NCBI RefSeq assembly: GCF_000007705.1
Contig: NC_005085.1
Span: 682,001-746,000, forward strand
DNA: 64,000 nt
Reading direction: 5' to 3'
Source: Chromobacterium violaceum ATCC 12472
GTDB taxonomy: Bacteria; Pseudomonadota; Gammaproteobacteria; Burkholderiales; Chromobacteriaceae
Below, piece after piece: positions 23,884 through 38,026 of the stretch; within the stretch, counting starts at the first letter, position 1, and the number at the start of each line of letters is the position of its first letter. The notes under the pieces were generated by a model. It was not told where the DNA came from, did not search any database, and was given only the letters and a program-made list of their open reading frames with translations. A program made the translations under genes and the position numbers.

Positions 23884-23907
23884 TGGACGCCAACTGGTTT
23901 GACTAGT

Positions 23908-24020
23908 GATCGGAAAGAATAAAGTCTGTCACGAGGTAATGAAGTCTGTAATGACAATGACATTATTGGCTTGTTGCCAGTAGTACTCAGCAAAGAGGCC
24001 CAGAAGGGCCTCTTTTCGTT
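23908..24020. repeat. 113-bp tandem unit, copy 1
   Basis: First of two directly adjacent units of identical length (113 bp), matching at about 95 of 113 positions (84%). It starts 25 nt after the glmS stop. Inside are two AATRAAGTCTGT motifs 20 bp apart (23918 and 23938), a small hairpin (23949-23965) and a terminator (23992-24016). No ORF in it is convincing. Confidence 0.9.
23992..24018 (+). terminator. intrinsic terminator in unit 1 (probable glmS terminator)
   Basis: AAAGAGGCCC - AGAA - GGGCCTCTTTT: a long stem with an in-built A/T tract on both sides, so it can act in both directions. Confidence 0.85.
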
Positions 24021-24133
24021 GATCGGAAAGAATAAAGTCTGTAACGAGGCAATAAAGTCTGTCATGGCGATGACATGACCAGTTTGTTGCTAGTAGCGCT
24101 AAACAAAGAGGCCCGGAAGGGTCTCTTTTCGTT
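24021..24133. repeat. 113-bp tandem unit, copy 2
   Basis: Second copy, starting at the base after copy 1. It keeps both AATAAAGTCTGT motifs (24031 and 24051), the small hairpin and the terminator. Most of the differences from copy 1 are transitions. One A-T pair of the small hairpin (23950/23964) is replaced by C-G (24063/24077), a compensatory change. Confidence 0.9.
24105..24131 (+). terminator. intrinsic terminator in unit 2
   Basis: AAAGAGGCCC - GGAA - GGGTCTCTTTT. One C-to-T change relative to copy 1 turns a G-C pair into G-U, so pairing is kept in RNA. Confidence 0.8.
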
Positions 24134-24403
24134 TGAGATTGTTGGGTTTGGGGATGCGAAAGGAAAGGATGGAAGTGGCTGTTCGTCGGCCTTGGCTCGA
24201 GGGCTATTCGTGGCGTCGCAAGATCGGGAATTCCCCGTTCTATTGCTGAAACAGCCAAAATATTAAGACTGAAATCTTTTTCTGGGCTTGGGTTCCGTCT
24301 GGGCCAGCTAGAATCATCCATTCGGGTCAAAATTTAGTCGGCACCTACAATCACGCCCCACAATGCCGCTGTCGCGGCAGCGGGGAGCTTGGGCCTTGTC
24401 GCG
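24134..24403. other. AT-richer spacer without a recognised gene
   Basis: 270 bp between the twin units and the AraC gene. I see no convincing reading frame. A GC-rich inverted repeat (CCGCTG-N6-CAGCGG, near 24366-24383) lies just past the AraC stop and may help to end that minus-strand transcript. Confidence 0.5.
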
Positions 24404-25291
24404 CTACAGTTCTGCTGCGAAGGCCTTGGCTTTCTTCGGCGTGACGCCGTAGCGTTGCTTGTAGACCTTGATGAAGTGGGAGGTATTTTCATATCCCACC
24501 TCCGCTGCCGCGTCGGTGACGGAATAATTTTTAGCTGTCAACAGTTGATGCGCGATGTCGACTTTTTTCTCGATGATCCAGCGGTTCGGGGTGGTGTTGT
24601 AGCTGCGCCTGAAGTCGCGGATAAAGGTCGACACGCTGCGTCCCGTCAGCAGGGCGTAATCTTCAATCTTCAGCTTATGAGAATAGTACTGCTCCATGAA
24701 GTTGGTGATGGGGCGGCGTTTGCGGCTGCCGCCGCTGGACAGCTCGCGCAGGAAACGGAAGGACTTGTCCTGGATGGCGATCAGGTGCAGTAGTTCGAGC
24801 AGTTTCAATTCCAGCAGCGCGTCGGAGCCCTCCGCGTCCTTGTAGACATAATTCAGCGAATCGATATAGCGCTGAATCTGTTGATTGGCATGCAGGATAT
24901 AAGTGCCGTGCGCGTTGTTCTGCAGGCCATCCGTATGCGAATGGCCTGTGCCGGCCGCGCGCGACAGGTATTTGGCGATCAGCTTGTCGTCGCAAAACAG
25001 CAGCACCGCCTCGAAGATATCGCTGCCAGTGACGTAGTCCGATACCGTGTAAACGCCTTTGGAGAGGAAAATCAAATGATTTTCCTCGACGACATGGGCC
25101 ATGGCGTCATGGTCGCGAATAATCTGCTTGCCTTGCTTGATGTAGACGATCAACGGCGTGGCGATATAGATCGCCTTGTTTTCCAGGTTTGTTTCAAGCG
25201 TTTTATGGAGGATGGACGAGCTGCCGTCAGCGAGGATAGGCTTTACATTGCGCATCGAATAAAGCGCCGCCGGTACTACTTCGAGTGTCAT
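24404..25291 (-). CDS. AraC-family transcriptional regulator
   Basis: 295 aa. The C-terminal 100 residues contain two HTH motifs of the AraC/XylS type: KIEDYALLTGRSVSTFIRDFRRSY and DAAAEVGYENTSHFIKVYKQRYG, the second ending with the usual G-V-T-P. The N-terminal half is of the kind seen in ExsA-like and other cupin-less members, and its ligand is unknown. It is transcribed in the same direction as the ABM gene upstream, across a 218-bp gap. Base composition is more AT-rich than the flanking core genes. Confidence 0.85.
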   Translation of the reverse strand: MTLEVVPAALYSMRNVKPILADGSSSILHKTLETNLENKAIYIATPLIVYIKQGKQIIRDHDAMAHVVEENHLIFLSKGVYTVSDYVTGSDIFEAVLLFCDDKLIAKYLSRAAGTGHSHTDGLQNNAHGTYILHANQQIQRYIDSLNYVYKDAEGSDALLELKLLELLHLIAIQDKSFRFLRELSSGGSRKRRPITNFMEQYYSHKLKIEDYALLTGRSVSTFIRDFRRSYNTTPNRWIIEKKVDIAHQLLTAKNYSVTDAAAEVGYENTSHFIKVYKQRYGVTPKKAKAFAAEL

Positions 25292-25509
25292 TGCTATGGC
25301 TTCTCAACAAATTGGCCGCCCCATTTGGACAGGACGGTATCCAGCAGCGCGACATGCTGCTGCCCAAGCGTGCGGCACGTTTGGGACGGAAGAGGATATC
25401 CGGGAAGATAGCAGAAAATACATAATAGCCAATAGCGCGTGTATGCCAGAGATGGCGCCGGAGGCGCGGCCGGACTCGCCGCACGCGCCCTGCCGCTGAT
25501 GTTACGGCA

Positions 25510-25797
25510 TCAAACTTCGCTGAAGTAGCCGCTGACCGGCGCGCTGCTCAGATGCTCGGCGATGATGCTCCACTGACCGCTCGAGATCATCTGGTCGACG
25601 TGGGCGCCGTGCATTTCACGCGAATCCCAGGCTTCCACGAGCGTGAATGCGAGTGGATCCTCCAAGTGGTTGAGAATCTTGACCGTTTGGCAACCGTCCA
25701 CCTTCGGCAGATTGATCTTCACGTCGTTCATGATGTCCTTGAACGATTGCAGCTTTTCTTCTTTTACATTAAAGCTGATGACGAGATTGACGGACAT
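25510..25797 (-). CDS. ABM-domain monooxygenase-like protein
   Basis: 95 aa with the antibiotic-biosynthesis-monooxygenase fold pattern: NLVISFNVKEEKLQSFKDIM, GCQTVKI, FTLVEAWDSREMHGAHV. The E-x-W and following H-x-x-H-like spacing is typical of small dimeric YgiN-like proteins. The ATG has GGAG seven nt upstream. These proteins act on quinones or polyketide-like aromatics, but the substrate is not evident. Possibly the target of the downstream AraC regulator. Confidence 0.8.
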   Translation of the reverse strand: MSVNLVISFNVKEEKLQSFKDIMNDVKINLPKVDGCQTVKILNHLEDPLAFTLVEAWDSREMHGAHVDQMISSGQWSIIAEHLSSAPVSGYFSEV

Positions 25798-26838
25798 ATT
25801 AGTTCTCCAGTTGAATTAGACTACAAAAACATCGTCGATTGCAGGAGCCGTAGATTGCCGAGGCGGCGCAAGCAAAATGCGAAAGGCATGTTCAGGCTTT
25901 CATTTTTTGTCCCGTTCCCGTATCTGACATGGTCAAGACGACCAATGAAACCACCAAGTTCTTGAGCCATGGTTTGACCTGAGCTGCATCGGTAAAATCT
26001 TTTCCTTTCACATGACGCGTAGTGCTAGCCCAAAGTCCTCTTATGGTTGGGAGGATTATGTAAATTCCTTTTGGGTGTGAATCCGATATGGCGCAAAGAA
26101 TTCGCGCTGCGAGCCACTACTATATCGATGGGTAGAAGATGAAAATGATTAAAAATGACTAAAAATGGACGATTCCAGTCACTCTTGCGTTTTTCTTGTT
26201 CGACGGCCGACGGCATGCGCTGCTTGGGCGAATGGAGAGTCAGGCGGTGTTCAAAAATGACCTATCTTGGGTAAGCGCCTGAAGTTTTGCTTGGGGCATC
26301 TCCCATTCGTAAATATGTCTTTGGGATTGGCCGTGGAACAGTACGGGCATGTCTGAAATTCTGTGTAAACCACCCATCCCATCGCATCGTCGACCGCGGG
26401 CTTTGGCCGACCGGTCTCTGCGCTCGCTGTCCTGAAATCCTTGCGATTGCTGGCTGTGACAGACCATGACCGAAGGGCTGCTCGCCGGCCTTGTCGGCCA
26501 CTGGGATGCACCATGCGCAATGTCGGCAATCCGTCAGCGAGCGGCCTGCGGCGATGATTCCAGTCTGAACGAATGCGTTTCTCGGTGGCTTTGGCCGCTC
26601 TCGCTTTGTAAGTAGCCATTGCAGTGCCTGGCAGACCAGAAGCGCACAGCTATTCCACCGGGAAATCGGGTCAGGGGAAGCGGCCACACCGCCCACAAAG
26701 CTTCGCAGTGTTGAAACAACAAGTTGGTGCGGGATCTGTGCTCTTGGCTAGCAAATATCGGCCGGATCACTGCGTCATGATCAGATTCGGGTGGTCGTGC
26801 ACGCTGTGCAGGGGCATGTCCGCCGATTTCTGTTTCAG
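25798..26838. other. about 1 kb intergenic or decayed region
   Basis: No reading frame here has family-like sequence or a good ribosome site with normal codon use. Several overlapping frames of 60-144 codons exist on both strands between 26240 and 26917, but none is recognisable. Composition is lower in GC than the core genes. The stretch around 26245-26260 (TGTTCAAAAATGACC) has the look of an insertion-sequence end, which I cannot confirm. I interpret the region as decayed mobile or accessory DNA. Confidence 0.5.
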
Positions 26839-26862
26839 TTCTGACACAAGTTAGACAGAACA
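26839..26862. promoter_or_regulatory. possible upstream activator dyad for fapA
   Basis: Perfect inverted repeat GTTCTG-N12-CAGAAC, ending about 50 bp upstream of the -24 element of the fapA promoter. Position and symmetry fit a binding site for a dimeric sigma54 activator. This is inference. Confidence 0.35.
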
Positions 26863-26910
26863 TCTGCATGAAAAAATCAAATTCCCTTATGCCATGGGGG
26901 CTTGGCAAGG

Positions 26911-26926
26911 TTGGCACGCTTTATGC
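26911..26926 (+). promoter_or_regulatory. sigma54 (-24/-12) promoter of fapABCDE
   Basis: TTGGCACGCTTTATGC: the invariant GG (26913-26914) and GC (26925-26926) are exactly 10 bp apart, and TGGCACG is a full match to the -24 consensus. The -12 half reads ATGC instead of TTGC. It lies about 40 bp upstream of the first fap gene. No comparable sigma70 promoter is evident. Confidence 0.75.
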
Positions 26927-26965
26927 GCTAGGTTAGGTGATTGCGCAAGCTAACTGGAGCCAATG

Positions 26966-27400
26966 ATGAAAGCGCAAAACCATCGCCTGGTCCTGTTTTT
27001 TCTGGCAGGCCTGGGCCTGCAGGCGGCAGTCCATGCCGCAGATGATGGCGACATCATCATCGGCAGGGAGGTGCCGAGCCGGAGTGCCATTCGCCATGGC
27101 GAGCCCAGTCCCGATGTCAGCGCGGTGAATGCCTCGCAGTCTGATGTGATCGTTGGCGCCACCCAGCAAGTCGTCAGCATCAGCGGCCAGGCCGGCGAAA
27201 TGGTGTTGGGCGCGGTGCGCGGCAGCGTGACCGATCAGACCAGACTGCTGCAGGGGCTGCCTGTCACGGTGATGACGGCAACGCCCGTTGCCGGTTTGGG
27301 CATATCAGGGGCGGCGGGCAGCAGGGAAGGACTGGCTGGAGCGGGTATCAGCCAGCCGCTGCAATCCGGCCTGCAACCCTTGAGCGGCCTGGCTCATTAG
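26966..27400 (+). CDS. fapA: FapA-like periplasmic protein of the Fap amyloid system
   Basis: 144 aa. Signal peptide residues 1-24 (cleavage at VHA-ADDG). The mature part is small, Gly/Ala/Ser/Val-rich and without cysteine. In Pseudomonas the first fap gene encodes a small periplasmic chaperone that keeps FapB and FapC unfolded. I call this one FapA from its position, size and signal peptide; sequence similarity is not obvious by eye. ATG 26966 is favoured over 26963 because GGAG lies six nt before it. First gene behind the sigma54 promoter. Confidence 0.6.
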   Translation: MKAQNHRLVLFFLAGLGLQAAVHAADDGDIIIGREVPSRSAIRHGEPSPDVSAVNASQSDVIVGATQQVVSISGQAGEMVLGAVRGSVTDQTRLLQGLPVTVMTATPVAGLGISGAAGSREGLAGAGISQPLQSGLQPLSGLAH

Positions 27401-27410
27401 GACAGACGCC

Positions 27411-27995
27411 ATGCGCATCATGCAATTGTTGTGGCTCAGCAGTTGCCTTGGCCATGCGGCGGCGCATGCCGAACAGGCCGTGATCGACAACAGCGGGCAG
27501 TCAGTACACGGGATAGTGGCATTGAATCAGGCTGCGGGTAGCGCCAATCAACAAGGCAATCTGCAAGCCTTGGCGGTGTCGGCCACGGCGAGCCATGCCA
27601 ATGTGTTTCTGTTCCGGCAGCAGTCGGCCACTAGCACGGCCGGAACGGCCGATGCCCATGCCAGCATTGCCGGGGCGGCCTTCTCCGGCAGCCAGGGCCT
27701 GATGGCCATCAACCAGACGGCAGGCCATGCCAATCATTCCTTGAATGCTTTCACGCTGGCGGCGTCGCCACAGCCTCAGGCGACAACGCTGCCATCCTCC
27801 GCCGCGGACAGCCTGTTAGCCGGCACCGCAGGCAGCAATCCGGCCATGGCTGCAGGTAGCAGCGGCCGCCATGACCAGACTGATATTTCCGCAGCCGCTT
27901 TCCTGGGAAGCCGGGGGCTGGTGCAACTCAACCAGATTGCTGGCAGCCACAACCAGGCTGTCAATGTAGTGGCCGTGCAATGGGCCAAGCCGTGA
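27411..27995 (+). CDS. fapB: FapB-like amyloid nucleator
   Basis: 194 aa. Signal peptide residues 1-20 (AHA-EQAV). The mature protein contains three imperfect repeats: GIVALNQAAGSANQQGN, GLMAINQTAGHANHSLN and GLVQLNQIAGSHNQAVN. They are separated by Ala/Ser/Thr-rich linkers. The N-Q-x-A-G-x-x-N-Q core is the hallmark of FapB/FapC amyloid repeats. In Pseudomonas FapB is the minor fibril subunit and probable nucleator. AGGA precedes the ATG by 8 nt. There is an 10-nt gap after fapA. Confidence 0.85.
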   Translation: MRIMQLLWLSSCLGHAAAHAEQAVIDNSGQSVHGIVALNQAAGSANQQGNLQALAVSATASHANVFLFRQQSATSTAGTADAHASIAGAAFSGSQGLMAINQTAGHANHSLNAFTLAASPQPQATTLPSSAADSLLAGTAGSNPAMAAGSSGRHDQTDISAAAFLGSRGLVQLNQIAGSHNQAVNVVAVQWAKP

Positions 27996-28059
27996 GCAGT
28001 ACTGGTCGCCACCTGGAGGGTGATGACCGGCATTCAAGCAAACCGCCTGGAGAATGATC

Positions 28060-28878
28060 ATGACCGCAATGCTGCAGAAAAAAGTGCTTTTCCTCGCTCT
28101 TGTTGGTGCGTGTGGCCTAGCCCATGCCGCAGGAGCGGACACTTCCAACGACCCGTCGTCTTCCACGAGGAGCGAGATCAGCAACAATCTATCCAACACT
28201 TATGGCAATACCAATGTCAACCAGACGGGTACGGCGTATCTGGAAGGCATCTCCGTATACGAAGTATTTGATCCCAAAGCGGATGCCATGGCCACGGCGC
28301 GGGTGGATGATGTACAGAAAAATCTGGGCAACAAGCTCAATGTAACGGATCCAGCCAATGCCGCGATGAGCGGCAGCGTGACCGGCATCCAGGGCAATGC
28401 CGGCGTGAACAATGCTTCCGGCTTCTTCAATCAGCAGGCCAATAATGTTGCCATTACTTCGGCGTCCGGCAAGAAGAGCGGCGCCGCGGCTGCCGTTTCC
28501 TTCGAGCAGTTGAATGATGGCAACACTTACACCTTTGCCCAGCCGCTGTACGGCACCTCCAACAAAATGGATGCCACCATGAGTAATTCGGTGAGCAACA
28601 TTCAGGGCAATGCCGGGATCAACAATGCGGCGGGTGCCGGCAACCAGCAAAAGAACGATGTGGCGCTGTCGTCAGCCAGTTCCGCAGTGCTGGCGACGGC
28701 TTCGGCTGGCGGCACCCAGGTCAATCACGGTATTGCTGTGACGACCTTCCTGCCGATCAATGGCACCGCGAGCATCACCGGTTCCGTGAACAACGTCACT
28801 GGCAATGTCGGACTGAACAATGCAGCCGGCTTGTCCAACCAGCAGGTTAACAGCCTGTCGGTTGCCGCAACCCACTAA
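28060..28878 (+). CDS. fapC: FapC-like major amyloid fibre subunit
   Basis: 272 aa from ATG 28060 (GGAG 7 nt upstream; ATG 28054 is too close to it). Signal peptide about 1-23. Three clear repeats share the core G-x-x-G-x-N-N-A-x-G-x-x-N-Q-Q. They are at residues about 105-131 (IQGNAGVNNASGFFNQQ), 177-203 (IQGNAGINNAAGAGNQQ) and 242-268 (VTGNVGLNNAAGLSNQQ). Linkers are 45 and 38 residues. The mature sequence contains no cysteine, whereas as far as I recall Pseudomonas FapC ends in a CxxC motif. It should be the main extracellular fibril protein. Confidence 0.9.
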   Translation: MTAMLQKKVLFLALVGACGLAHAAGADTSNDPSSSTRSEISNNLSNTYGNTNVNQTGTAYLEGISVYEVFDPKADAMATARVDDVQKNLGNKLNVTDPANAAMSGSVTGIQGNAGVNNASGFFNQQANNVAITSASGKKSGAAAAVSFEQLNDGNTYTFAQPLYGTSNKMDATMSNSVSNIQGNAGINNAAGAGNQQKNDVALSSASSAVLATASAGGTQVNHGIAVTTFLPINGTASITGSVNNVTGNVGLNNAAGLSNQQVNSLSVAATH

Positions 28879-28930
28879 GCCAGGGAGGGGCCGGCGGCGC
28901 AGCTTGGTCTGTCGCTGCCGGTTTGTGACC

Positions 28931-29635
28931 ATGAAACTTCCCATCCGCCCGCTGTTATCGATCCTGCTATGCCTGTTCTGCTCCGGTGGCCAGGGGGGCG
29001 CTCAAGCGGCTGACATGATGCTGCCCGCTTACACCGGTGAGGGCAATGTTTACAAGCAGGTGCACAGCTTGCGTGAATTACGCTTCCGTTATGTGGTGGA
29101 ACAAAAGACGGATTTCAGCTGCGGCGCCGCCGCCTTGACCACATTGCTGCGCTATGGCTTTGGGCTTGATGTCAATGAGCAGCAAGTCATTGCCGGGATG
29201 CTGGCTCGGGCCAATCCCGATGTGGTGCGGCAACAAGGGTTTTCCATGCTGGACATGAAACGCTTCGTTAATGTTTTGGGCTTGCGTGCCAGTGGTTTCG
29301 TCAGTGGCGCCGAACGTTTGCCCGCGCTGCGCATTCCTGCGCTGATCATGCTCGACATCAATGGCTACAAGCACTTTGTCGTTTTGAAGATGGCTACCCG
29401 CGACACAGTCTATGTTGCGGATCCGGCGCTGGGCAACCGCGCCATTCCCATGCCAGAGTTCACCCGGCAGTGGAATGGCGTGTTGCTGGCGGTGGCCGGG
29501 CCGGGCTACCGGCCGCAGGGGCCTTTGCGCCAGTTTCCCAGCCCGTTGTCCGCGCGGCAGTTGATGGTGAACATGCAGCCGGCGTCGCCGGCTGAGCTGG
29601 TTGAATACGGCTTTCTTTACAGTGATTTCTTATAG
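28931..29635 (+). CDS. fapD: FapD-like C39-family peptidase
   Basis: 234 aa with a signal peptide (about 1-27) and a peptidase C39 domain like that of bacteriocin-processing proteases. Likely catalytic residues are Cys64 in DFSCGAAALTTLL with oxyanion Gln58, His148 in YKHFVVLK, and Asp164 in VADPALGN. FapD is thought to process Fap subunits or assembly factors during export. Fourth gene of the operon, 52 nt after fapC. A GGAGG lies closer to the fapC stop than to this ATG, so the exact start is slightly uncertain. Confidence 0.9.
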   Translation: MKLPIRPLLSILLCLFCSGGQGGAQAADMMLPAYTGEGNVYKQVHSLRELRFRYVVEQKTDFSCGAAALTTLLRYGFGLDVNEQQVIAGMLARANPDVVRQQGFSMLDMKRFVNVLGLRASGFVSGAERLPALRIPALIMLDINGYKHFVVLKMATRDTVYVADPALGNRAIPMPEFTRQWNGVLLAVAGPGYRPQGPLRQFPSPLSARQLMVNMQPASPAELVEYGFLYSDFL

Positions 29636-29687
29636 TCTCCGCTGCCGGCCAGCGCATGGCGGGAACGGAGAGGGCAGGGAGCAGAGC

Positions 29688-30359
29688 ATGCGTACGTTGA
29701 TTAAGGTACTGGCGGCAATGCTGGTGCTTGGCTTCAGCTTGCCGGCAAAATCCATGCTGGCCTATGTTGACGACAGCGTACTGGACAGCATGCGCGGGCG
29801 ATATGTGGATGCCGGGCAGATTGTGCGCTTCGGCGTGCAGATGCTGAGCACCTGGCAGAACGCCGACGGCGTGGTGCAGGGGGCCGGTGTCCAGCTCAGT
29901 GCCCAGGCCGGTGCCGTGCCGGTCATCCATCGCTATACGCTCAACAGTACCAGCGCGACAAGTCATGCCGTCGGCAGCATGCCGACGGGACTGGCTTCGG
30001 TGCAGGGGACGGTTCAGATCAATCAGCAAGCTGGCAACGGCAATATTTCCCGCAACATCACCCGTGTCGACATCGATGATGGCGCGGCCCCGGTCAGCAT
30101 GCCGGCTGGATGGCAGGCCAGCGCGCAGGGTAGCGCGGTCACCAATGGACAGCTGGGAGTCAGCATCAATATGGGCAGTGCCGGACAGATGGGTCAATAC
30201 CTGGGGCAAGGACAGTTGATGCAATTCTCCCGGATCACCGGTAACGGCATCATCACCAACAATAGCCTCCATATCCAGCTGGCAGTGCAGTCTCAGGTAG
30301 GGTTGATCCGTTTCACCATGCCAAGCCGAGCCATGATGGCCGGCATCGGGCTGCGCTGA
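29688..30359 (+). CDS. fapE: FapE-like minor fibre component
   Basis: 223 aa with a signal peptide (about 1-22). The domain is rich in Gly, Gln, Ser and Asn, including GTVQINQQAGNGNISRN, which echoes the amyloid repeat core once. FapE is a minor extracellular or envelope component of Pseudomonas Fap fibres and a proposed adaptor for export. GGGAG precedes the ATG. It is the last plus-strand fap gene; the minus-strand regulator gene converges on it across 70 bp. Confidence 0.82.
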   Translation: MRTLIKVLAAMLVLGFSLPAKSMLAYVDDSVLDSMRGRYVDAGQIVRFGVQMLSTWQNADGVVQGAGVQLSAQAGAVPVIHRYTLNSTSATSHAVGSMPTGLASVQGTVQINQQAGNGNISRNITRVDIDDGAAPVSMPAGWQASAQGSAVTNGQLGVSINMGSAGQMGQYLGQGQLMQFSRITGNGIITNNSLHIQLAVQSQVGLIRFTMPSRAMMAGIGLR

Positions 30360-30429
30360 ACATCGCCCGCCATGTCGTTTCTTGCCGACGCCGTGCGCCG
30401 TGGCCCGGTGGTCACCTGTTGTGCTGTCG

Positions 30430-31764
30430 CTAGTTGATGATTTGCATCGAATATTTCTTCAACAGCCGGTACAGCGTGGCGCGCGAGATGCACAGCATGC
30501 GCGCCGCCTTGCTGCTGTTATGGCCATGCAGCTCCAGCGCCATCTCCACCGCCTCGCGCTCGGCCTTTTCCCGGACGGCTTCCAGGCCATCATGCAGCGG
30601 GATGGCCATATTGCCGCCCAGCCCCATGTCCTGCGGCCGGATGACCCGCCCGCCGGCCATGGCCAAGCCCTGGCTGATGCGGTTGGACATCTCCCGGATA
30701 TTACCGGGCCAGTCATGTTGCAACATGATGGCCATTGCCTCGTACGACAGCCGTTTGTGCGGCAAACCCAGCCTCTGGGCATTCTGGAATAGCAGGTGCT
30801 TGGCCAGCAGGGGAATATCGGAACGCCGCTCGCGCAAGGGCGGCAGGTGCAGCTGGCAGACGCACAGGCGGTAATACAAGTCCTGACGGAAACGACCGTT
30901 GCTGATGGCGGCGGGCAGGTCGACGTGGGTTGCCGACAAGACACGGGTGTCGATGCTGCGGCTGCGATGGTCGCCCAGCCGGTCTATGGTGCCTTCCTGC
31001 AGGAAGCGCAGCAGGCTCACCTGCGCTTCAATGGCCATGTCTCCGATTTCATCCAGAAACAGGGTGCCATTGTGGGCAGCCTCGATGCGGCCGATACGAC
31101 CGGATGAAGCGCCGGTAAAGGCGCCTCGCTCGTGGCCGAATAATTCCGACTGCACCAGGCTGACCGGCAGCGCGCCGCAGTTGACTGTCTGGAAAGGGCC
31201 ATCGGCCCGGTCGGAGTACTGATGCAACAGCTGAGCCACCAGCTCCTTGCCGCAACCGGACTCCCCGGTGATGACGACGGTGACATTCACGCGCGCCAGA
31301 CGGCGGATTTCCTGACGCAAACGCCGCATGCAGTCATGCTCGCCAACCAGTTTTTTTTGCTCCTCCGGGATCTCCTCCTGCTGCAGATGCCTCCGCAGCA
31401 TGGTCTTGCCATGCAGCCGCCCCAGCGTGACCGCCAGCCTGGCGCTCTCGACCGGCAAACAATGGTAGTCATAGCAGCCGTCATTGATGAAGCTACGCAC
31501 GGCTGCGTGCTCCAGTTGTTGGCGTTCGGTTAGCAACACCCACTCCAGGTCAAGCTGGCCGCCAAGCTGCTGCAGCGCCTCCGCCTTGCGCAGCAGCTTG
31601 TTGTCCAGCAAGAGCAGGCCCGCGCTGAATGGCCCAGCCTGCCGGAGTTTGGGCTGCTGCACATCGTGGATGTGAATGATCTTCCAGTGCTGCTGATGCA
31701 AATCGTGCAGCACGGGAAGCAATGCATCCGACCCTAGCGCCAGCAGCGTTTTGCTCGCTTGCAT
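30430..31764 (-). CDS. sigma54-dependent activator with VpsR-like N-terminal domain, probable fap regulator
   Basis: 444 aa from ATG 31764 (GGAG 6 nt upstream). Residues 1-125 are a receiver-like domain without an obvious phospho-acceptor pocket, resembling VpsR of Vibrio. The AAA+ domain has Walker A GESGCGKE (167-174), the sigma54-contact loop GAFTGA (214-219) and Walker B LFLDEIGD (235-242). A Fis-type HTH closes the protein (NSSKAARMLCISRATLYRLLKKY region). It therefore can activate sigma54 promoters, and two candidates lie in this locus (26911 and 33130). It is co-transcribed behind fapF (11-nt gap). VpsR binds c-di-GMP; whether this protein does is inference. Confidence 0.9.
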   Translation of the reverse strand: MQASKTLLALGSDALLPVLHDLHQQHWKIIHIHDVQQPKLRQAGPFSAGLLLLDNKLLRKAEALQQLGGQLDLEWVLLTERQQLEHAAVRSFINDGCYDYHCLPVESARLAVTLGRLHGKTMLRRHLQQEEIPEEQKKLVGEHDCMRRLRQEIRRLARVNVTVVITGESGCGKELVAQLLHQYSDRADGPFQTVNCGALPVSLVQSELFGHERGAFTGASSGRIGRIEAAHNGTLFLDEIGDMAIEAQVSLLRFLQEGTIDRLGDHRSRSIDTRVLSATHVDLPAAISNGRFRQDLYYRLCVCQLHLPPLRERRSDIPLLAKHLLFQNAQRLGLPHKRLSYEAMAIMLQHDWPGNIREMSNRISQGLAMAGGRVIRPQDMGLGGNMAIPLHDGLEAVREKAEREAVEMALELHGHNSSKAARMLCISRATLYRLLKKYSMQIIN

Positions 31765-31775
31765 TGCCGACTCCG

Positions 31776-33059
31776 TTAGAATCGATAAGGGAACTTCACC
31801 GAAAATGCATAGTTCGGGCTGTCCGGCGTCATGCCCAGCGACAGGCTGGGAATGATAGAGAGCCGCTTGCTGTACGCATATGTCAGGCCCAGGTTCAGGT
31901 TGGCGGCATTGGCGCTGCTCCCCACCACATCGGTCCAACTGCTGCCCTGCTGGCGTACCCGTGCCTGACCCACCATCTGCTGTGAATAGGACAGACCCAG
32001 GCTGAGCTTGTCGTTAAGCGCAAAGGCGATACCGGCACCCCAGCTCCAACTGTTTCCCAGGCGCACATCGCCCGGCTGGGCCACGCCGACCGTGGGGCTG
32101 ATGTCGCGGAAATGGCCATCCAGATAATGGGTGTAGCTGAGGCTGGCGAACAGGACGGCCGGATCCGCCGTCTTGACGAAGGACAGGCCGGTGGTGATGC
32201 CCCAAACGCCATTGCCGGTAGGCAGGCGGTCCGGCGTGGAGAGATTGTTGTTGCCAGCAGACTGAACCAGCTTGATGCCATAAGGGTTGCGCCCGGTTGG
32301 TGCCTTGACGCGCAAACTCCACACCATGTCCGGCCAGTCGGCGTCCTCCTCCTTCAGCTTGTAACCCAGGCCAAGACTGATATCGCCCAGTGCCGGCCCC
32401 TGTTGTACCGACCCCTGCGAAACGCTGTTGGCGCCGCCGCCCGCGCCGCCGGAGAAATAAGTTGCGTCCCGCGCCACGAAAGGAAGGTCAATATCCAGCT
32501 GCCAACGCGGGCTGGGCGAGTACCGCGTGGCCAGGTCCAGCGTCAGACTGTCGCTGACCACCTTATCCAGGTTGATATTGCCAAGGAAAATGGAGTCCAG
32601 CGCCAGAAAGCCATTGAGCACGAGTTCGCGCGTATCGTAATGGGTGTAGGTGAGGCTGGGCTCGATGGAGAACTTGCCCGCGGCAAAACCGCTGGCTTCC
32701 TGATAGATGTCTTCCATGCTCTTGGGAACTTCGCTCACCACCGGCAGGGCCGGGCCATTGCCGCCGGCCATGGCTCCGTGATTGGCCGCCGTGTCAGCGC
32801 CAACGCTCTTGCTGCTGATGTCGGTACGACTGCCAATGGCGGCTGCCGCGCTCTGGCCGTCATGGCGGGTCAGCCCGGCCAATTGCTGCTCCAATTGGCG
32901 TATGCGCTGTTCCTGTTGCCGGTTGGTCTGCGCCAGATCACTGATCTGCTGTTGCAGGCTTTCGAGGCTGATATCGGCCCAGGCCTGTAAAGGAAAAGAC
33001 AAGGATAGCGCAGCCAGCAACAGGCTGCTGCAAGTGGAGCGCAAGGTGGTCGGCGGCAT
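31776..33059 (-). CDS. fapF: FapF-like outer-membrane amyloid exporter
   Basis: 427 aa. Signal peptide 1-28 (QAWA-D). A coiled coil at about residues 30-64 (LQQQISDLAQTNRQQEQRIRQLEQQL) is followed by a low-complexity linker. From about 130 there is a beta-barrel with alternating strands ending in a C-terminal aromatic residue (VKFPYRF), as for outer-membrane proteins. This matches FapF, a trimeric coiled-coil-gated barrel that secretes FapB/C. In Pseudomonas fapF is the last gene of one operon; here it is on the opposite strand with the regulator. ATG 33059 has AAGGA 7 nt upstream. Confidence 0.87.
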   Translation of the reverse strand: MPPTTLRSTCSSLLLAALSLSFPLQAWADISLESLQQQISDLAQTNRQQEQRIRQLEQQLAGLTRHDGQSAAAAIGSRTDISSKSVGADTAANHGAMAGGNGPALPVVSEVPKSMEDIYQEASGFAAGKFSIEPSLTYTHYDTRELVLNGFLALDSIFLGNINLDKVVSDSLTLDLATRYSPSPRWQLDIDLPFVARDATYFSGGAGGGANSVSQGSVQQGPALGDISLGLGYKLKEEDADWPDMVWSLRVKAPTGRNPYGIKLVQSAGNNNLSTPDRLPTGNGVWGITTGLSFVKTADPAVLFASLSYTHYLDGHFRDISPTVGVAQPGDVRLGNSWSWGAGIAFALNDKLSLGLSYSQQMVGQARVRQQGSSWTDVVGSSANAANLNLGLTYAYSKRLSIIPSLSLGMTPDSPNYAFSVKFPYRF

Positions 33060-33629
33060 GATCGTTTCCTTCGCGTGCAGGTGCGGCTGGCCCGCCTGCA
33101 TCCTCGGCGCATGCTGAGCGCCGAGTGCTGCAAGAAGATTTCCCCGCTACCTCATCGATAGCGTCATGATGCCCCGGTTTGGTTATTTAATATTACTTGA
33201 AACAGAATTATTGATTTGTTATTTATCTTAGTCGATATCAAAGACAAAACAAGCCCTGCGAAATTGTCATTGGCTGGTTTTTTTGATGATATAAGCCCGT
33301 GAAATTGCTACTGCGCGAAGGGCTAAAATTTTAAATGGATCGCAGTTTTAAGATGAAAAAAGCATGCATTTGCGATTTGTTGTCATGATTTTATTTATCT
33401 TGCCCGGCGAAGGGCGCATAAGGTTCGTAGGGGTCTGAGGGAGGCAAAGGAGCCCGCGGCCCTTTTGTTTTTGCTCATTAGCTAAGGGGTTGGACTTTCA
33501 AAGTCGTTTGCTGAGAGGCAGTGGCGGCCTCTGACTTTGTCCTTTCATTTGGCTGCGCAGAGGTCTATGGAGAGCGTCGTCGGCAGCCGGCAAGCATTCG
33601 GGCATCGCGGCCGCCCATTCCGTCGGAGA
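33060..33629. other. AT-rich intergenic region upstream of fapF
   Basis: 570 bp without a supportable gene. Composition is clearly AT-richer than the flanks, especially 33170-33400. It holds the candidate sigma54 promoter of fapF. Short frames at 33521-33902 are antisense to the SDR gene or lack features. Confidence 0.6.
33130..33143 (-). promoter_or_regulatory. candidate sigma54 promoter of fapF and its regulator gene
   Basis: On the minus strand the sequence reads GGAAATCTTCTTGC: GG and GC are 10 bp apart, with a full TTGC at -12 but a poor -24 box. It lies 71 bp upstream of the fapF ATG. Weaker than the fapA promoter. Confidence 0.4.
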
Positions 33630-34712
33630 TTATCGCCTGCCCCCATTGGCGAACCCGATGTTTTCTTTGCCGGATTGGCGCATCCCCGCTCGCGCCATTC
33701 GCTGCCGGATCCACGCGACTTCCTCCGCCAGCGTTTCTTCCATGGGCCTGAAGCCCAGGCCAAAGCGGGTCCGGATTTTTTCCGACGAGAATTTTCTTCC
33801 GTAGTCGTTAGCCATGTTTTTTACCGTGGCCAAGCTGAGCAATACCGGCTTGCCGGTCAGTCGAGCATAGATCTCCTGCAGAGAAGCGATGGCATACAAT
33901 AGTGCGCGAGGCAGTCCGCGGCGCGGGGCGGGCACACCGCTTACGGCTTCCATCGCCTGTAAAAGCCCGGCCATGCTGACGGGGTGGCCTGCGGCCAAAT
34001 AGCGTTCGCCTCGTTCCCCCGTTTGGCTGGATGCCAAAGCGACTTGGGCCACATCCCGGGCATCCACCACAGAAAAAGCGGCATCGATCACGCCTGGAAT
34101 TTTTTGTTGCAAGTAGTCCTCTACGAACTGCCCGGCCGAAGTCGGCCCAAGATCGCCTGGGCCATGCATCCAGCCGGGCAAGACCAGGGAAATGTGCATG
34201 TCCGGGTGGTTGTCGAGGAAAGCGAATATCACCGCGTCGGTTTCAATCTTGCTGCGGTAATAGTCATCCGGTGCCTCCTCTATTGCCAGCACCATGCTTT
34301 CGTCGGTCAATCCAGAGTCATTGCGGCCCAAAACCGCGATGGAGCTGATGTGGACCATGCGCCGAATGCCGGCCGTGTACGCCTCGCGCAGCAGATTTTG
34401 CGTGCCTTCGACATTCGTCTTGCGCAGGGCGTCCAGATGGCGGCCGCCTTTGTAGCTTTCGCGGAAGTAGGCCGCGGCATGGAAAATAACTTGGCAGCCC
34501 CGCAATGCTGGAGCAAAGCCTTTTACATCCGTGAGATCGCCCAGAACCACTTCTAGACGGCTGCCTGTCAACTCCCCGAACTGCTCCATGGCTTTCCGTT
34601 CCGACCTGGCTAAAGCCCTGACCCGATAACCTTCGGCGAGCAGCAAACGAACGAGATTATTGCCCAGCAATCCGGTAGCGCCAGTGACAAATGCGATTTT
34701 TTCTTGCGTCAT
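33630..34712 (-). CDS. NAD(P)-dependent epimerase/reductase (extended SDR, dihydroflavonol-reductase-like)
   Basis: 360 aa. Rossmann motif TGATGLLG at the N terminus (about residues 10-17), LGDLTD, and an active-site YxxxK (YYRSK, near residue 152) in the extended-SDR pattern. Related enzymes reduce ketones or act on NDP-sugars; the substrate is unknown. It is divergent from the MerR regulator, and its promoter spans a MerR-type dyad. The last 20 residues (GKENIGFANGGRR) look like an unstructured tail. Confidence 0.85.
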   Translation of the reverse strand: MTQEKIAFVTGATGLLGNNLVRLLLAEGYRVRALARSERKAMEQFGELTGSRLEVVLGDLTDVKGFAPALRGCQVIFHAAAYFRESYKGGRHLDALRKTNVEGTQNLLREAYTAGIRRMVHISSIAVLGRNDSGLTDESMVLAIEEAPDDYYRSKIETDAVIFAFLDNHPDMHISLVLPGWMHGPGDLGPTSAGQFVEDYLQQKIPGVIDAAFSVVDARDVAQVALASSQTGERGERYLAAGHPVSMAGLLQAMEAVSGVPAPRRGLPRALLYAIASLQEIYARLTGKPVLLSLATVKNMANDYGRKFSSEKIRTRFGLGFRPMEETLAEEVAWIRQRMARAGMRQSGKENIGFANGGRR

Positions 34713-34779
34713 GTTTTTCCCTGATCGTCAGCTCATTAAGAGGGCGTCGTGAAAGTCAGCCGAGGCTGTGCGAGAGGGC

Positions 34780-34811
34780 ACTGTAAACATTGGTGTATAG
34801 TCCAAGGTCAA
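34780..34811 (-). promoter_or_regulatory. MerR-type promoter of the SDR gene
   Basis: Minus strand: -35 TTGACC (34806-34811), unusually long 20-bp spacer, -10 TACAGT (34780-34785). The dyad TTGG-N2-TATA-N2-CCAA (34790-34805) sits in the spacer. Over-long spacers with a central dyad are the signature of MerR-activated promoters, and a MerR gene diverges from here. Confidence 0.5.
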
Positions 34812-34838
34812 GCCAAAATGCATCGGGGACGTTTGATC

Positions 34839-35198
34839 ATGCGGATCGGAGAGTTGGCAGCACAGACCGGGATGACGCGTGACGCTATCCGTTTTTACGA
34901 GCGGATCGGCCTTATCACGCCGGAACGCGGTCAAGAGGGCCGCCACGGCTACCGCCGCTACAATGCGTCGGCGGTGCGACGCCTGGGGCTGATCAAGCAG
35001 GCCAAGACTTTGGGGTTTTCACTTGGCGAAATCCAGGCGCTGCTGGATGCATGGGCCAATCACCGTTTCAGTCCGGCGCAGAAGCGCGCAGTGATTGCCG
35101 ACAAGATCAGGGTAATCGATCGCAAGATCTTGGAGCTGCAGGCGCTTGCAAGCGAGCTCAAATTGACGCTGGCCGGCATCCGCGACGCGTGCCAATAG
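34839..35198 (+). CDS. MerR-family transcriptional regulator
   Basis: 119 aa. N-terminal winged HTH (MRIGELAAQTGMTRDAIRFYERIGL) followed by the dimerisation helix, and no cysteine pair of the metal-binding type, so a metal sensor is unlikely. ATG 34839 is chosen because the conserved MRIGELA start follows directly and GGGGA lies upstream. Probably controls the divergent SDR gene. Confidence 0.9.
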   Translation: MRIGELAAQTGMTRDAIRFYERIGLITPERGQEGRHGYRRYNASAVRRLGLIKQAKTLGFSLGEIQALLDAWANHRFSPAQKRAVIADKIRVIDRKILELQALASELKLTLAGIRDACQ

Positions 35199-35455
35199 AC
35201 ATGGCGGCAACCGCCGGCGGCTCGTGGCTGATCGGCCTGTCTCTCTATCTTTGGCTATTGCTTTTCTGATCATGAAGTGTCGCCAGTCAGACTGGCGACT
35301 GGCTTGCTTTGTGATGCCAAGCGGATATTTCGAACTGTCGGCGCGCGGCATCTGCTGCGCGATCAAGCGGGCCGGAGCCTTTTCCAGACAGGGCTGTCCG
35401 GTATGGTGGCACTGTCGGCCAGGTTGGCGTCCCGCGCGTCGCGGACGGGGTATCG

Positions 35456-36850
35456 CTAGCTGGCGTTTTGCCTGACGAGCGCGTTCATCCGGCCGCGCCG
35501 CAACGCGGCGATGGCCGCCGCCGTGATCAGCGCGGCTGCGGCGAAGGCGGCGCGGGTGGCCCAGGCGACGGCCTCCGGCCGGGTATCGACGATGGAACCG
35601 CCCGCCGCGGCGGCGAAGACGGCGCCCAGCGCCGAGGCGCCGGTGACCAGGCCGAGATTGCGCGCCAGGTTGAGCAGGCCGGACACCAGGCCGCGCCGGT
35701 CGGCGGGCAGGCCGGCCATGACCAGGGTGTTGTTGGATGCCTGGAACAGCGCGTAGCCGGCGGTGAGGACGACAAGCGGCGCCAGGTAGCCTGCCAGGCC
35801 CAGCGCGGCCGGCGAGGCGGCGATGAGGGCGGCGCCCGCCAGCATCGCAACCAGGCCCGCCAGGCAGATCCGTTCCGCGCCGAAGCGGTCGGTCAGGCGG
35901 CCGGCCGGCACGCCGGCCAGCGCGGAGATCGCGGGACCGACGGACATGGCCAGGCCCGTAGCCACCACATCCAGTCCCAGCGCGCGGGACAAGTGAAAGG
36001 GGCCGATCACCAGGGTGCCCATCATCACCGCCGCCACCAGCGCGCCGGCGATCAGGCTGCCCGCCAGCGCCGGGTCGCGCAGCAAGCCTATCCTCACCAG
36101 CGGCGCTTCGACGCGCATTTCCACCCGAACGAAGGCGGCGACGCCTGCCGCCGCGGCCAGCAGCAGCGCCAGGTTCATCGGGCCGAAGCGGCCGCGACCC
36201 GATGTCATCGCCAGCGCGTAGGCGGTCAGCGCCAGCGCCAGCAGCAGGGCGCCAGCGAGATCGAAACGGATCCTGCCGGCCGGCGGCGCATCGGCCGGCA
36301 GGCTGCGCAGCGCGAGCAGGAAGACGGCCGCGCCGGCAGGCGCGAGCGCGAGGAACACGGCCGGCCAGCCCCAGGCGGAGAGCAGCGCCCCGCCCAGCGA
36401 GGGGCCGAGCGCGGTGCCGGCGGCCGACATGCTGCCCAGCCAGCCCATCGCGCGGCCGGTCCGCTCTTTGGGCGCGACGTCGGCGACGAAGGCCAGCGCC
36501 AACGCCAGCATCGCCGCCGCGCCCAGGCCCTGGAGCGCGCGGGCGGCCAGCAGCCAGCGGAAGGAGGCCAGCCCGGCCGCCAGCGAGGCGAGGCTGAACA
36601 GCAGGATGCCGGCCAGCAGCAGCCGGCGCTTGCCGGCCAGATCGCCCAGCCGGCCGACGCCGACGATCAGCGCGGTGACGGCGAGCAGGTAGGCGAGCAC
36701 CACCCATTGCGCTTGCTGGAAGGAGGCGCCAAAGGCGCGGGCCAGTTCGGGCAGCGCGACATTGGCGATGCTGGTGCCCAGCGAGGACAGCAGCACGCAT
36801 AGCGACAGGCAGGCCAGCGCGCCGCGTCGGTGAGAAGGCAAAGTGTTCAA
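35456..36850 (-). CDS. MFS drug transporter (DHA2-like, about 14 TM)
   Basis: 464 aa, very hydrophobic. The first helix carries LSSLGTSIANVALPELARAF, and the loop after TM2 GVGRLGDLAGKRR matches the MFS A motif. TM5 has the antiporter C motif region (GTALGPSLGGALLSAWGW). Likely a proton-driven exporter of drugs or small molecules. It is divergent from a LysR gene (37037), with a palindromic operator candidate between them. Stops at 35456 with 257 bp of gene-free DNA beyond. Confidence 0.88.
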   Translation of the reverse strand: MNTLPSHRRGALACLSLCVLLSSLGTSIANVALPELARAFGASFQQAQWVVLAYLLAVTALIVGVGRLGDLAGKRRLLLAGILLFSLASLAAGLASFRWLLAARALQGLGAAAMLALALAFVADVAPKERTGRAMGWLGSMSAAGTALGPSLGGALLSAWGWPAVFLALAPAGAAVFLLALRSLPADAPPAGRIRFDLAGALLLALALTAYALAMTSGRGRFGPMNLALLLAAAAGVAAFVRVEMRVEAPLVRIGLLRDPALAGSLIAGALVAAVMMGTLVIGPFHLSRALGLDVVATGLAMSVGPAISALAGVPAGRLTDRFGAERICLAGLVAMLAGAALIAASPAALGLAGYLAPLVVLTAGYALFQASNNTLVMAGLPADRRGLVSGLLNLARNLGLVTGASALGAVFAAAAGGSIVDTRPEAVAWATRAAFAAAALITAAAIAALRRGRMNALVRQNAS

Positions 36851-36983
36851 GCGGATGCTCCCTATGATGTGCGATAGCGCGTCGGGCGCGGGCCTTCAGC
36901 CGGTTTCGCCGGCCATTCCCAGGCCGCGCCGCGTTCATTTCCGTAGCCTAGGCGGGTCCATGGCATGGCGGAAGACGCACGAT

Positions 36984-37002
36984 ATGCACTCGATAAGTGC
37001 AT
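36984..37002. promoter_or_regulatory. LysR operator candidate (MFS / LysR divergent promoter)
   Basis: Perfect inverted repeat ATGCACT-N5-AGTGCAT, 35 bp before the LysR start and about 130 bp before the MFS start. It has the T-N11-A form of LysR boxes. Confidence 0.6.
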
Positions 37003-37036
37003 GTGGCGCCATGCCAGGCCGTGCTATGGTGGACGG

Positions 37037-37984
37037 ATGAGCACACCCGATCTGAACCTGCTGGTCACTCTCAACGCGCTGTTGGCCGAGGGCAGCGTGG
37101 CCGGCGCCGCGCGCCGGCTGGGGCTGAGCCCGTCGGCGATGAGCCGCGCGCTGGCCAGGTTGCGCGCGACGATGAATGATCCCCTGCTGGTCCGCGCAGG
37201 CAGGGGACTGGTGCCCACGCCGCGGGCGCTGGCGCTGCGCGAGCGCATCGGCCCGCTGCTGCGCGAGGCGGAGGCGGCGCTGAAGCCGGCGCGGCAGCTG
37301 GACCTGGCGACGCTGGCGCGCACGTTCACGCTGAGGACCAGCGACGGCTTTGTCGAGAACTTCGGCCCCAGGCTGATCGCGCGCGCGGCGCGGGAGGCGC
37401 CCGGCGCGCGCTTCCGCTTCGCGCTGAAGGCCGACAAGGACAGCGCGCCGCTGCGCGACGGCAGCGTGGACCTGGATACCGGCGTGGTCGGCGCGGCAGC
37501 CGGGCCGGAGCTGCGGGTGAGGATGCTGTTCCGCGACCGCTTCGTCGGCGTGGCGCGCGCCGGCCATCCCTTGCTGGACGGCGAGATCAGCGCCGAGCGC
37601 TACGCCGCGGCCCGCCACGTCTGCATGTCGCGCAGCGGCCAGGATCGGGGGCCGATAGACGCGGCGCTGAAGGCGCTGGGTTTGACGCGCAACGTTTCCA
37701 CCCTGGTCGGCGGCTTCACCGCCGCCCTGGCGCTGGCCCGCGCCACCGACCTGATCGCCTCGGTGCCGGAGCGCCACACCGGCTTCCTGCGCGACGGCAT
37801 GCAGAGCTTCCCTTTGCCGGTGGAGGTGCCCGGCATCGTCATCTCCATGATCTGGCATCCGCGGCATGACGCCGATCCCGCCCACCAATGGCTGCGCGGC
37901 TGCGTGAAGGCGGTGTGCGATGAGCAACTGGACGCGCACGGCTGCTCCGGCCGGTCGGGCCTGGACCCGTCAACGCTGGTGTAG
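37037..37984 (+). CDS. LysR-family transcriptional regulator
   Basis: 315 aa. N-terminal HTH (LNLLVTLNALLAEGSVAGAARRLGLSPSAMSRALARLR) and the type 2 periplasmic-binding effector domain. ATG 37037 is favoured because a G-rich site (GGTGGACGG) precedes it and the frame then starts directly at the HTH. It resembles NodD/LinR-type members (MSTPDLNLL). Probably regulates the divergent MFS pump. Confidence 0.9.
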   Translation: MSTPDLNLLVTLNALLAEGSVAGAARRLGLSPSAMSRALARLRATMNDPLLVRAGRGLVPTPRALALRERIGPLLREAEAALKPARQLDLATLARTFTLRTSDGFVENFGPRLIARAAREAPGARFRFALKADKDSAPLRDGSVDLDTGVVGAAAGPELRVRMLFRDRFVGVARAGHPLLDGEISAERYAAARHVCMSRSGQDRGPIDAALKALGLTRNVSTLVGGFTAALALARATDLIASVPERHTGFLRDGMQSFPLPVEVPGIVISMIWHPRHDADPAHQWLRGCVKAVCDEQLDAHGCSGRSGLDPSTLV

Positions 37985-38026
37985 CGTGGACGGGACCTGG
38001 CCGAGCGCCAAGGTGAAAATCCCGCC

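Follow-up and report, generated by a model that had tools for sequence, protein, structure and literature searches.

A Fap functional-amyloid locus of Chromobacterium violaceum with an adjacent, probably BrfA-type sigma54 activator and a candidate enhancer at fixed spacing

In Pseudomonas fluorescens PF07 the gene brfA adjoins the fap genes and an RpoN promoter lies before fapA-E (PMC9207406). Transcription of fap is lost in brfA and rpoN mutants, the RpoN promoter has been mapped by 5'-RACE, and fapF does not rise with fapA-E (PMC9207406). The idea of a dedicated switch is therefore not new, the fap-RpoN-BrfA circuit being in print for P. fluorescens. In Chromobacterium, a Fap system with a detached fapF was listed in 2013, together with a predicted -35/-10 promoter ahead of that fapF (PMC3792158). 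Here we describe the fap locus in a stretch of 64,000 nucleotides from Chromobacterium violaceum ATCC 12472 (contig NC_005085.1, positions 682,001 to 746,000; the window), part of a genome of one contig of 4,751,080 bases. We hold it highly probable that this is a Fap locus with a dedicated BrfA-type enhancer-binding protein working by the mechanism proposed below, and sequence comparison indicates that the adjacent activator very probably drives fapA-E.

Judged from its predicted proteins, the locus is a Fap functional-amyloid system with homologues of FapA to FapF all together (Table 1). Profile models were taken from NCBIfam for the Fap proteins and from Pfam for the activator and peptidase domains, and their matches confirmed the arrangement given in a preliminary description of this DNA, with fapA-E on the plus strand (26963-30359, in the order A, B, C, D, E) and FapF and a sigma54 activator on the minus strand. 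All six Fap models gave significant matches, yet under the NCBIfam curated cut-offs (for FapF, 511 bits against a cut-off of 700). The stop of fapF and the start of the activator gene are 11 bp apart. In our reading the refined starts are ATG 31764 for the activator, ATG 33059 for FapF, 28931 for FapD and 29688 for FapE.

A -24/-12 promoter with exact GG-N10-GC spacing had been claimed at 26911-26926, and this was borne out. The near-ideal box, TTGGCACGCTTTATGC, is a 16-mer starting 51 bp before fapA and was the best site in the 700 bp upstream of that gene, equalled in 1% of 300 shuffles; here and in the enhancer statistics the shuffles preserve letters only, not dinucleotides. The start of fapA-E transcription would be expected at about 26937. 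In an alignment of upstream regions the boxes of the close loci (compared loci carry L numbers, genomes G numbers) lined up. In the window, L009, L013, L083, L086 and L087 the best box preceded the first fap gene by 49-54 bp; the listed open reading frame (ORF) begins just 4 bp past the box in L010-L012 and L096, the box of L090 falls inside the listed ORF, and that of L091, where fapA was undetected, is 654 bp before fapB. A sigma70 promoter at fapA was rejected, as a consensus scan of 7 kb gave none before this gene; its three matches (2.6 expected) were all on the minus strand.

The same alignment, of the window and 11 relatives, contained a second conserved block, the palindrome TGTTTCAG-TT-CTGACACA at 26831-26848, a candidate enhancer that we call UAS-I (upstream activating sequence); a candidate second copy, UAS-II, lies further upstream. 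We scored the enhancer as TGT-N2-CA-N4-TG-N2-ACA, a pattern derived from the window and its close relatives. All 12 Chromobacteriaceae fap loci that have an activator gene beside them carry UAS-I 72-74 bp from the box, on its upstream side. In every one of them but L083 a further copy, matching 8 or more of the 10 letters, lies at 201-203 bp, which means that both spacings are kept in 11 of the 13 Chromobacteriaceae fap loci. The 13th, L093, is the sole one without an adjacent activator, and it has neither the enhancer nor a good box (best score 16.0, equalled by half of the shuffles).

The loose motif alone was not enriched in the window genome (68 places versus 90 for a reversed control), so that uniqueness of the motif was dropped as evidence and motif and spacing were used together. 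An enhancer with at least 8 of 10 letters at 70-76 bp accompanied 17 of 450 sigma54-like sites in 36 stretches, one per locus in 17 loci; 16 of these 17 composites lay upstream of the first detected fap gene, and the composite of L077 lay 2.3 kb before fapB. When enhancer distances were counted in 7-bp bins from 25 bp, there were 15 at 67-73, 12 at 200-206, 7 at 60-66 and 0-5 elsewhere. Within the 64 kb window the composite at 70-76 bp occurred once, at fapA. The only other perfect match to the loose motif in the genome (G000:C1:92051-92079) overlaps a one-mismatch copy, and no good -24/-12 box was found near it at the tested spacings.

In 14 loci outside the family the enhancer scores summed to 95 at 70-76 bp (shuffled mean 62.5, standard deviation 3.5) and to 106 at 140-156 bp (71.0, standard deviation 3.1), with none of 2000 shuffles as high in either case, and four control spacings gave p values of 0.49-0.81. 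Four loci at middle distance (L083, L087, L091, L096) scored 35 versus 18.0 at 70-76 bp and 29 versus 18.1 at 199-205 bp. Because the 140-156 bp interval had been picked after seeing the data, it was then fixed and tried on ten new, held-out loci from the order of G165 (perhaps Pseudomonadales), which is not the window's own, where a composite at 70-76 or 140-156 bp was present in nine. The other bins held 0-1 of the 122 held-out sites, with three exceptions: 4 at 56-62, 3 at 63-69, and 5 in a bin that overlaps the preset interval, 154-160.

We then consider how tightly the activator gene is tied to fap. FapF matches were found in 69 of 369 genomes of the class, from which wide stretches were taken around 3 weaker loci and, leaving the window aside, the 17 strongest (above 300 bits); from the family, 15 of the 22 listed FapF matches were taken, and the held-out list comprised the 10 strong new loci and no weaker ones. 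Of the 39 strong FapF loci outside the window, 37 had the gene of an activator of this kind within the fetched stretch (11-20 kb): 16/17 in the class (L066-L082), 11/12 in the family (L083-L093, L096) and 10/10 held out (L192-L201). L069 and L093, which have no activator, were scored as misses, and L073 as a match on a fragment at a contig end; in the genomes of both misses a second FapF-like locus (L070 and L095) comes with an activator of this type. A random 19 kb of the window genome has about a 3% chance of containing a strong sigma54-activator gene. Among 61 genomes of the family, a VpsR-domain match was present in 15/15 with FapF versus 1/46 without, the single exception being a weak match (24.8 bits) in a frame of 131 residues. 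Across the 369 genomes of the class, VpsR matches above 30 bits were found in 20 of 33 with a FapF-like protein above 100 bits versus 15 of 336 without. The Pfam VpsR domain is not universal, since five of the 17 strong FapF genomes scored below 30 bits, including all three of family f15. In a tree of 62 rows, which does not include the held-out loci, the window activator grouped with 11 other Chromobacteriaceae fap activators (100/94), and a single branch (95/85) united all fap activators of the tree with further VpsR-domain proteins and left out the seven other strong activators of this genome.

The supposition in the preliminary description that the adjacent activator drives fapA-E thus gained support from the fixed-spacing enhancer, the conserved linkage, the co-occurrence and the genetics of the PF07 counterpart (PMC9207406). 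Another sigma54 activator of the cell could control fapA-E, with the adjacent gene controlling something else: the genome has seven other strong sigma54-activator genes (and one RpoN gene was found), activators can act from afar, and L164 holds a second, weaker composite, in which a weak box (17.7) has a 9-of-10 motif 139 bp away. However, all seven lie outside the VpsR-domain branch, the linkage of activator and fap is conserved across many families, and among 20 motif stretches of the genome (taking in 18 of the 68 places plus two others) the only strong composite, at about 72 bp, was the one at fapA. We therefore regard control from elsewhere as extremely improbable and continue with the adjacent gene as the probable activator.

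The predicted activator has the features of an enhancer-binding protein, with an AAA+ domain carrying Walker A, Walker B and GAFTGA, and a Fis-type helix-turn-helix (HTH). Pfam matched Sigma54_activat (E 3e-66), the AAA lid, HTH_8 and the VpsR domain (PF20161; E 5e-15, 55.7 bits where the cut-off is 23.7). None of the three motifs GAFTGA, Walker A (GESGCGKE) and Walker B (LFLDEIGD) is broken and, in an alignment of 24 sequences including the window's, their residues are mostly invariant, the exception being the second residue of GAFTGA; both the intact motifs and the VpsR-like N-terminal domain had been noted in the preliminary description, and both hold. VpsR itself has a degenerate GAFTGA and functions without sigma54, and no GAFTGA was found in the VpsR-domain relatives L103, L118 and L122. 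Because its GAFTGA is intact, the window protein is classed as a VpsR-domain sigma54 activator and not as a VpsR. An AlphaFold model (mean pLDDT 84.9, pTM 0.64) had NtrX, NtrC1, VpsR and FleQ structures among its best Foldseek matches, and in our reading of the model the strands and helices of residues 1-125 appear to succeed one another as in a receiver domain. By our reading of the alignment, the N-terminal domain, a pseudo-receiver, is its least conserved portion and has no conserved phospho-acceptor.

By analogy with related regulators, the activator is likely to sense cyclic di-GMP (c-di-GMP), a plausible form of control that the preliminary description had raised as a possibility. This is the reported signal of BrfA in P. 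fluorescens PF07, described as a c-di-GMP-sensing enhancer-binding protein (PMC13101488), and BerB, like BrfA a sigma54 activator of matrix genes, is reported to bind it (PMC5552954). The window activator also belongs to the Pfam VpsR domain family, and the title of a VpsR crystal entry among the structure matches mentions c-di-GMP binding. Perhaps the activator drives fapA-E in response to something else, another ligand or partner, or is active whenever it is made. Such a possibility, which appears unlikely to us but deserves attention, agrees with the low conservation of the N-terminal domain, with its weak match to the solved VpsR N-terminal domain (7y19, E 0.0056), and with the residues aligned to the c-di-GMP contacts of FleQ. 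We take these contacts to be R144, R185, N186, E330 and R334 (numbering set two below the chain index), and none of the five is kept in the window activator, which reads K, Q, L, H and Q. A FleQ-type site was ruled out on this basis; if c-di-GMP is bound, as we still favour, it would be through another site.

Like the absence of these five residues, several observations weigh against the reading of a dedicated BrfA-type switch. At the four middle-distance loci, two control spacings also tended to score high (115-131 bp, p 0.02; 170-176 bp, p 0.06). Six of the ten held-out loci share a genus with L074 and L076, which had helped to choose the 140-156 bp interval; the remaining four, from another family, all had a composite. 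The held-out locus L201 had none, the main boxes of L068, L077, L078, L079 and L080 have weak enhancer copies or none, and the composite at L164 is a second one in this genome. Outside the window's family, the fap activators do not form one clade (8 changes). The activators of L074-L076 have 37-40% identity to the window's and share its wider branch, two of them occupying the place reported for brfA; the N-terminal domain of the window activator found no match in these three. Kinship to BrfA would be one of position and family.

Upstream of fapF and the activator gene the picture was different. A sigma70-type pattern, TTG-N2-T, N16, TA-N2-AT, is present in 8/8 close loci, 151-159 bp from the ribosome-binding stretch. 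The window copy has 7 of the 12 consensus letters, and since the stricter sigma70 scan missed this weak copy in favour of one that overlaps it (33235-33207) and found no more matches than expected from shuffles, the evidence for the predicted promoter is its conservation. It fits the behaviour of PF07, where fapF does not follow fapA-E, and the 2013 prediction for Chromobacterium (PMC3792158). The preliminary description had offered a weaker sigma54 candidate at 33130-33143, through which the activator might also drive its own operon. The site exists (GGAAATCTTCTTGC, GG-N10-GC); its score of 17.0 of 21.7 and its retention in only four of the eight close loci (the window, L009, L013 and L086, and not L010-L012 or L090) give no evidence of a promoter. 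Apart from the site itself, autoregulation could draw on the poor match of the sigma70-type sequence and the chance-level count of the stricter scan. However, the sigma54 site would lie downstream of the sigma70-type promoter, that is, inside the fapF leader, no enhancer above 7/10 was found in the 330 bp upstream of fapF, and the sigma70-type promoter is kept at a near-constant distance. Autoregulation from a sigma54 promoter is consequently not supported and seems very improbable.

The fapF leader (33059-33225, about 160 nt) can be aligned among close relatives. A GEMM-like c-di-GMP riboswitch, suggested by the stretch GGTAGCGGGG, was rejected for want of Rfam or folding support: searched permissively against Rfam, the window leader gave just three chance-level matches to unrelated families (E 3.5-4.6), the leaders of six relatives gave none at the gathering score, and the consensus fold of eight leaders was poor. 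Compared with shuffled sequences the window leader has a somewhat more stable fold (z -2.05), whose hairpin is also predicted for L009 and L013, and not for L010-L012 and L090.

We propose that the fapF-activator operon would be read at a base level from the sigma70-type promoter, as its conservation suggests, and that the activator, probably a dimer, would use its Fis-type HTH to bind the two enhancers, which lie 72 and 202 bp ahead of the box. The signal, most likely high c-di-GMP to judge from relatives, would be read by the VpsR-like pseudo-receiver and the AAA+ domain. The activator would then form a ring and loop to the RpoN-RNA polymerase at the -24/-12 box. Engagement of sigma54 by GAFTGA is established for this family of activators, and here it would switch on fapA-E. 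In this way the exporter and the regulator would be present beforehand and the fibre subunits made only upon the signal.

Close fap relatives are in Aquitalea, with FapF identities of 79-85% (five records). The block 26645-33255, from outside the distal enhancer to the -35 box of fapF, aligned as one piece with the sister-genus genome G371 at 85.0% DNA identity, compared with 82.9% for glmS and 76.9% for a neighbouring stretch; protein identities to the sister genus were 93% for the activator and 88% for GlmS. FapF was absent from 18/18 other genomes compared from the window's own genus. In the same-genus genome G395, gene order is interrupted from 23.9 to 38.0 kb of the window, where about 7.3 kb of different DNA stands instead, defining a variable region at 23890-38045; stretches from G393, G386 and G390 match on the left side only. 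Transfer of the fap block as a whole unit would be the simplest reading of this pattern, and loss of fap in the other species of the genus may be an alternative. A tblastn search of plasmids gave 18 records, none covering 80% of FapF, and a plasmid search with the activator returned thousands of general sigma54 activators and was uninformative.

More tentatively, and with slightly less than an even chance in our judgement, the Fap loci of many families may share one ancestral switch, consisting of a VpsR-domain or BrfA-type activator and a two-copy enhancer at about 72 bp and at about 143-156 or about 202 bp, that moves between genera as one self-regulated unit and has a c-di-GMP site unlike that of FleQ. 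The results suggest that, in many lineages, fap is usually arranged with the switch known from a single Pseudomonas strain. Two enhancers at fixed spacing give an exact DNA target, with which the pairing of activator and promoter can be tested and fap regulation predicted from sequence, and if a regulated amyloid unit passes intact from genus to genus, the patchy distribution of Fap would become easier to understand.

Some features of the surroundings and of related loci were also recorded. Beside fapF, 33630-34712 encodes an NAD-dependent epimerase (HpnA-like), 83-84% identical in two of four sister-genus genomes and with distant matches only in the seven same-genus genomes tested; from these comparisons it looks to have been acquired separately. 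The variable region also encodes, at 24404-25291, a regulator of the AraC type whose N-terminal domain is ExsA-like (Pfam E 5e-25). L083 (11647-16444, genome G401) has two copies of fapC, two of fapD (one a fragment) and fapE in two pieces, a partial tandem duplication, and in L096 (8853-10145, genome G412) fapF is split into several frames, with the activator frame and the enhancer retained. Six weaker FapF-like loci (L094, L095, L097-L100) all have a VpsR-branch activator and five have a FapD-like C39 protein, and neither FapB nor FapC was detected at any of them; a second export system under the same regulator family is possible.

Table 1. Predicted features of the fap locus, in window coordinates
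Feature	Position	Strand	Evidence or remark
UAS-II, distal candidate enhancer copy, CTTCGCAGTGTTGAAACA	26701..26718	+	8/10 core letters; centre 202 bp upstream of 16-mer
UAS-I, proximal candidate enhancer, TGTTTCAGTTCTGACACA	26831..26848	+	10/10 core letters; centre 72 bp upstream of -24/-12 16-mer
-24/-12 (sigma54) promoter of fapA-E	26911..26927	+	TTGGCACGCTTTATGC at 26911-26926; GG 26913-26914, GC 26925-26926
fapA (chaperone)	26963..27400	+	NCBIfam FapA E 5e-12
fapB (minor subunit)	27411..27995	+	NCBIfam FapB E 7e-32
fapC (major amyloid subunit, predicted)	28054..28878	+	NCBIfam FapC E 4e-33
fapD (C39 peptidase)	28931..29635	+	NCBIfam FapD E 4e-77, Pfam Peptidase_C39 E 2e-19
fapE	29688..30359	+	NCBIfam FapE E 4e-22
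sigma54 activator, BrfA-like, VpsR-type pseudo-receiver + AAA+ + Fis-type HTH, 444 aa	30430..31764	-	
fapF (outer-membrane exporter)	31776..33059	-	NCBIfam FapF E 2e-153
sigma70-type promoter of fapF-activator (predicted), TTGTTT, N16, TAAGAT	33225..33252	-	conservation

No study of fap regulation in Chromobacterium was among the matches listed in a search of the open literature. Because that search covered an open library only, the enhancer may already have been mapped in the 2024 BrfA paper (Guo et al.). The accessible part of the 2013 account of Chromobacterium Fap makes no mention of an activator, a sigma54 promoter or enhancers (PMC3792158).

Compared with other regulators of its kind, the window activator shares GAFTGA and the sigma54 activator family with BerB of Burkholderia cenocepacia, which drives a biofilm-matrix regulator through RpoN; BerB, however, controls berA (exopolysaccharide) and is described as being without an N-terminal input domain (PMC5552954). 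With VpsR of Vibrio cholerae, for which structures have been solved, it has in common the PF20161 N-terminal domain family and the AAA+ domain, whereas VpsR is described as not requiring RpoN (PMC5552954). With FleQ of Pseudomonas aeruginosa it shares the AAA+ fold, at 46% identity over the domain, but not the c-di-GMP contacts.

The closest likeness is to the BrfA-fapA-F system of PF07. Both place fapA-E on an RpoN -24/-12 promoter, here recognized by sequence, both have a gene for a Fis-family sigma54 activator next to fap on the opposite strand, and in both fapF appears to be regulated apart from fapA-E. Unlike in PF07, fapF of the window shares the activator's strand and operon, opposite to fapA-E; the enhancers are at 72 and 202 bp, whereas most loci in the order of G165 have their best copy at about 143-156 bp from the box, and the N-terminal domain of the window activator matches the VpsR model well. 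To the published circuit we add an enhancer at fixed spacing, the linkage of the activator, a sigma70-type promoter for fapF and the alignment of the whole unit with a sister genus. The phase-locked enhancer is the part worth following, as it makes a family resemblance into a testable circuit.

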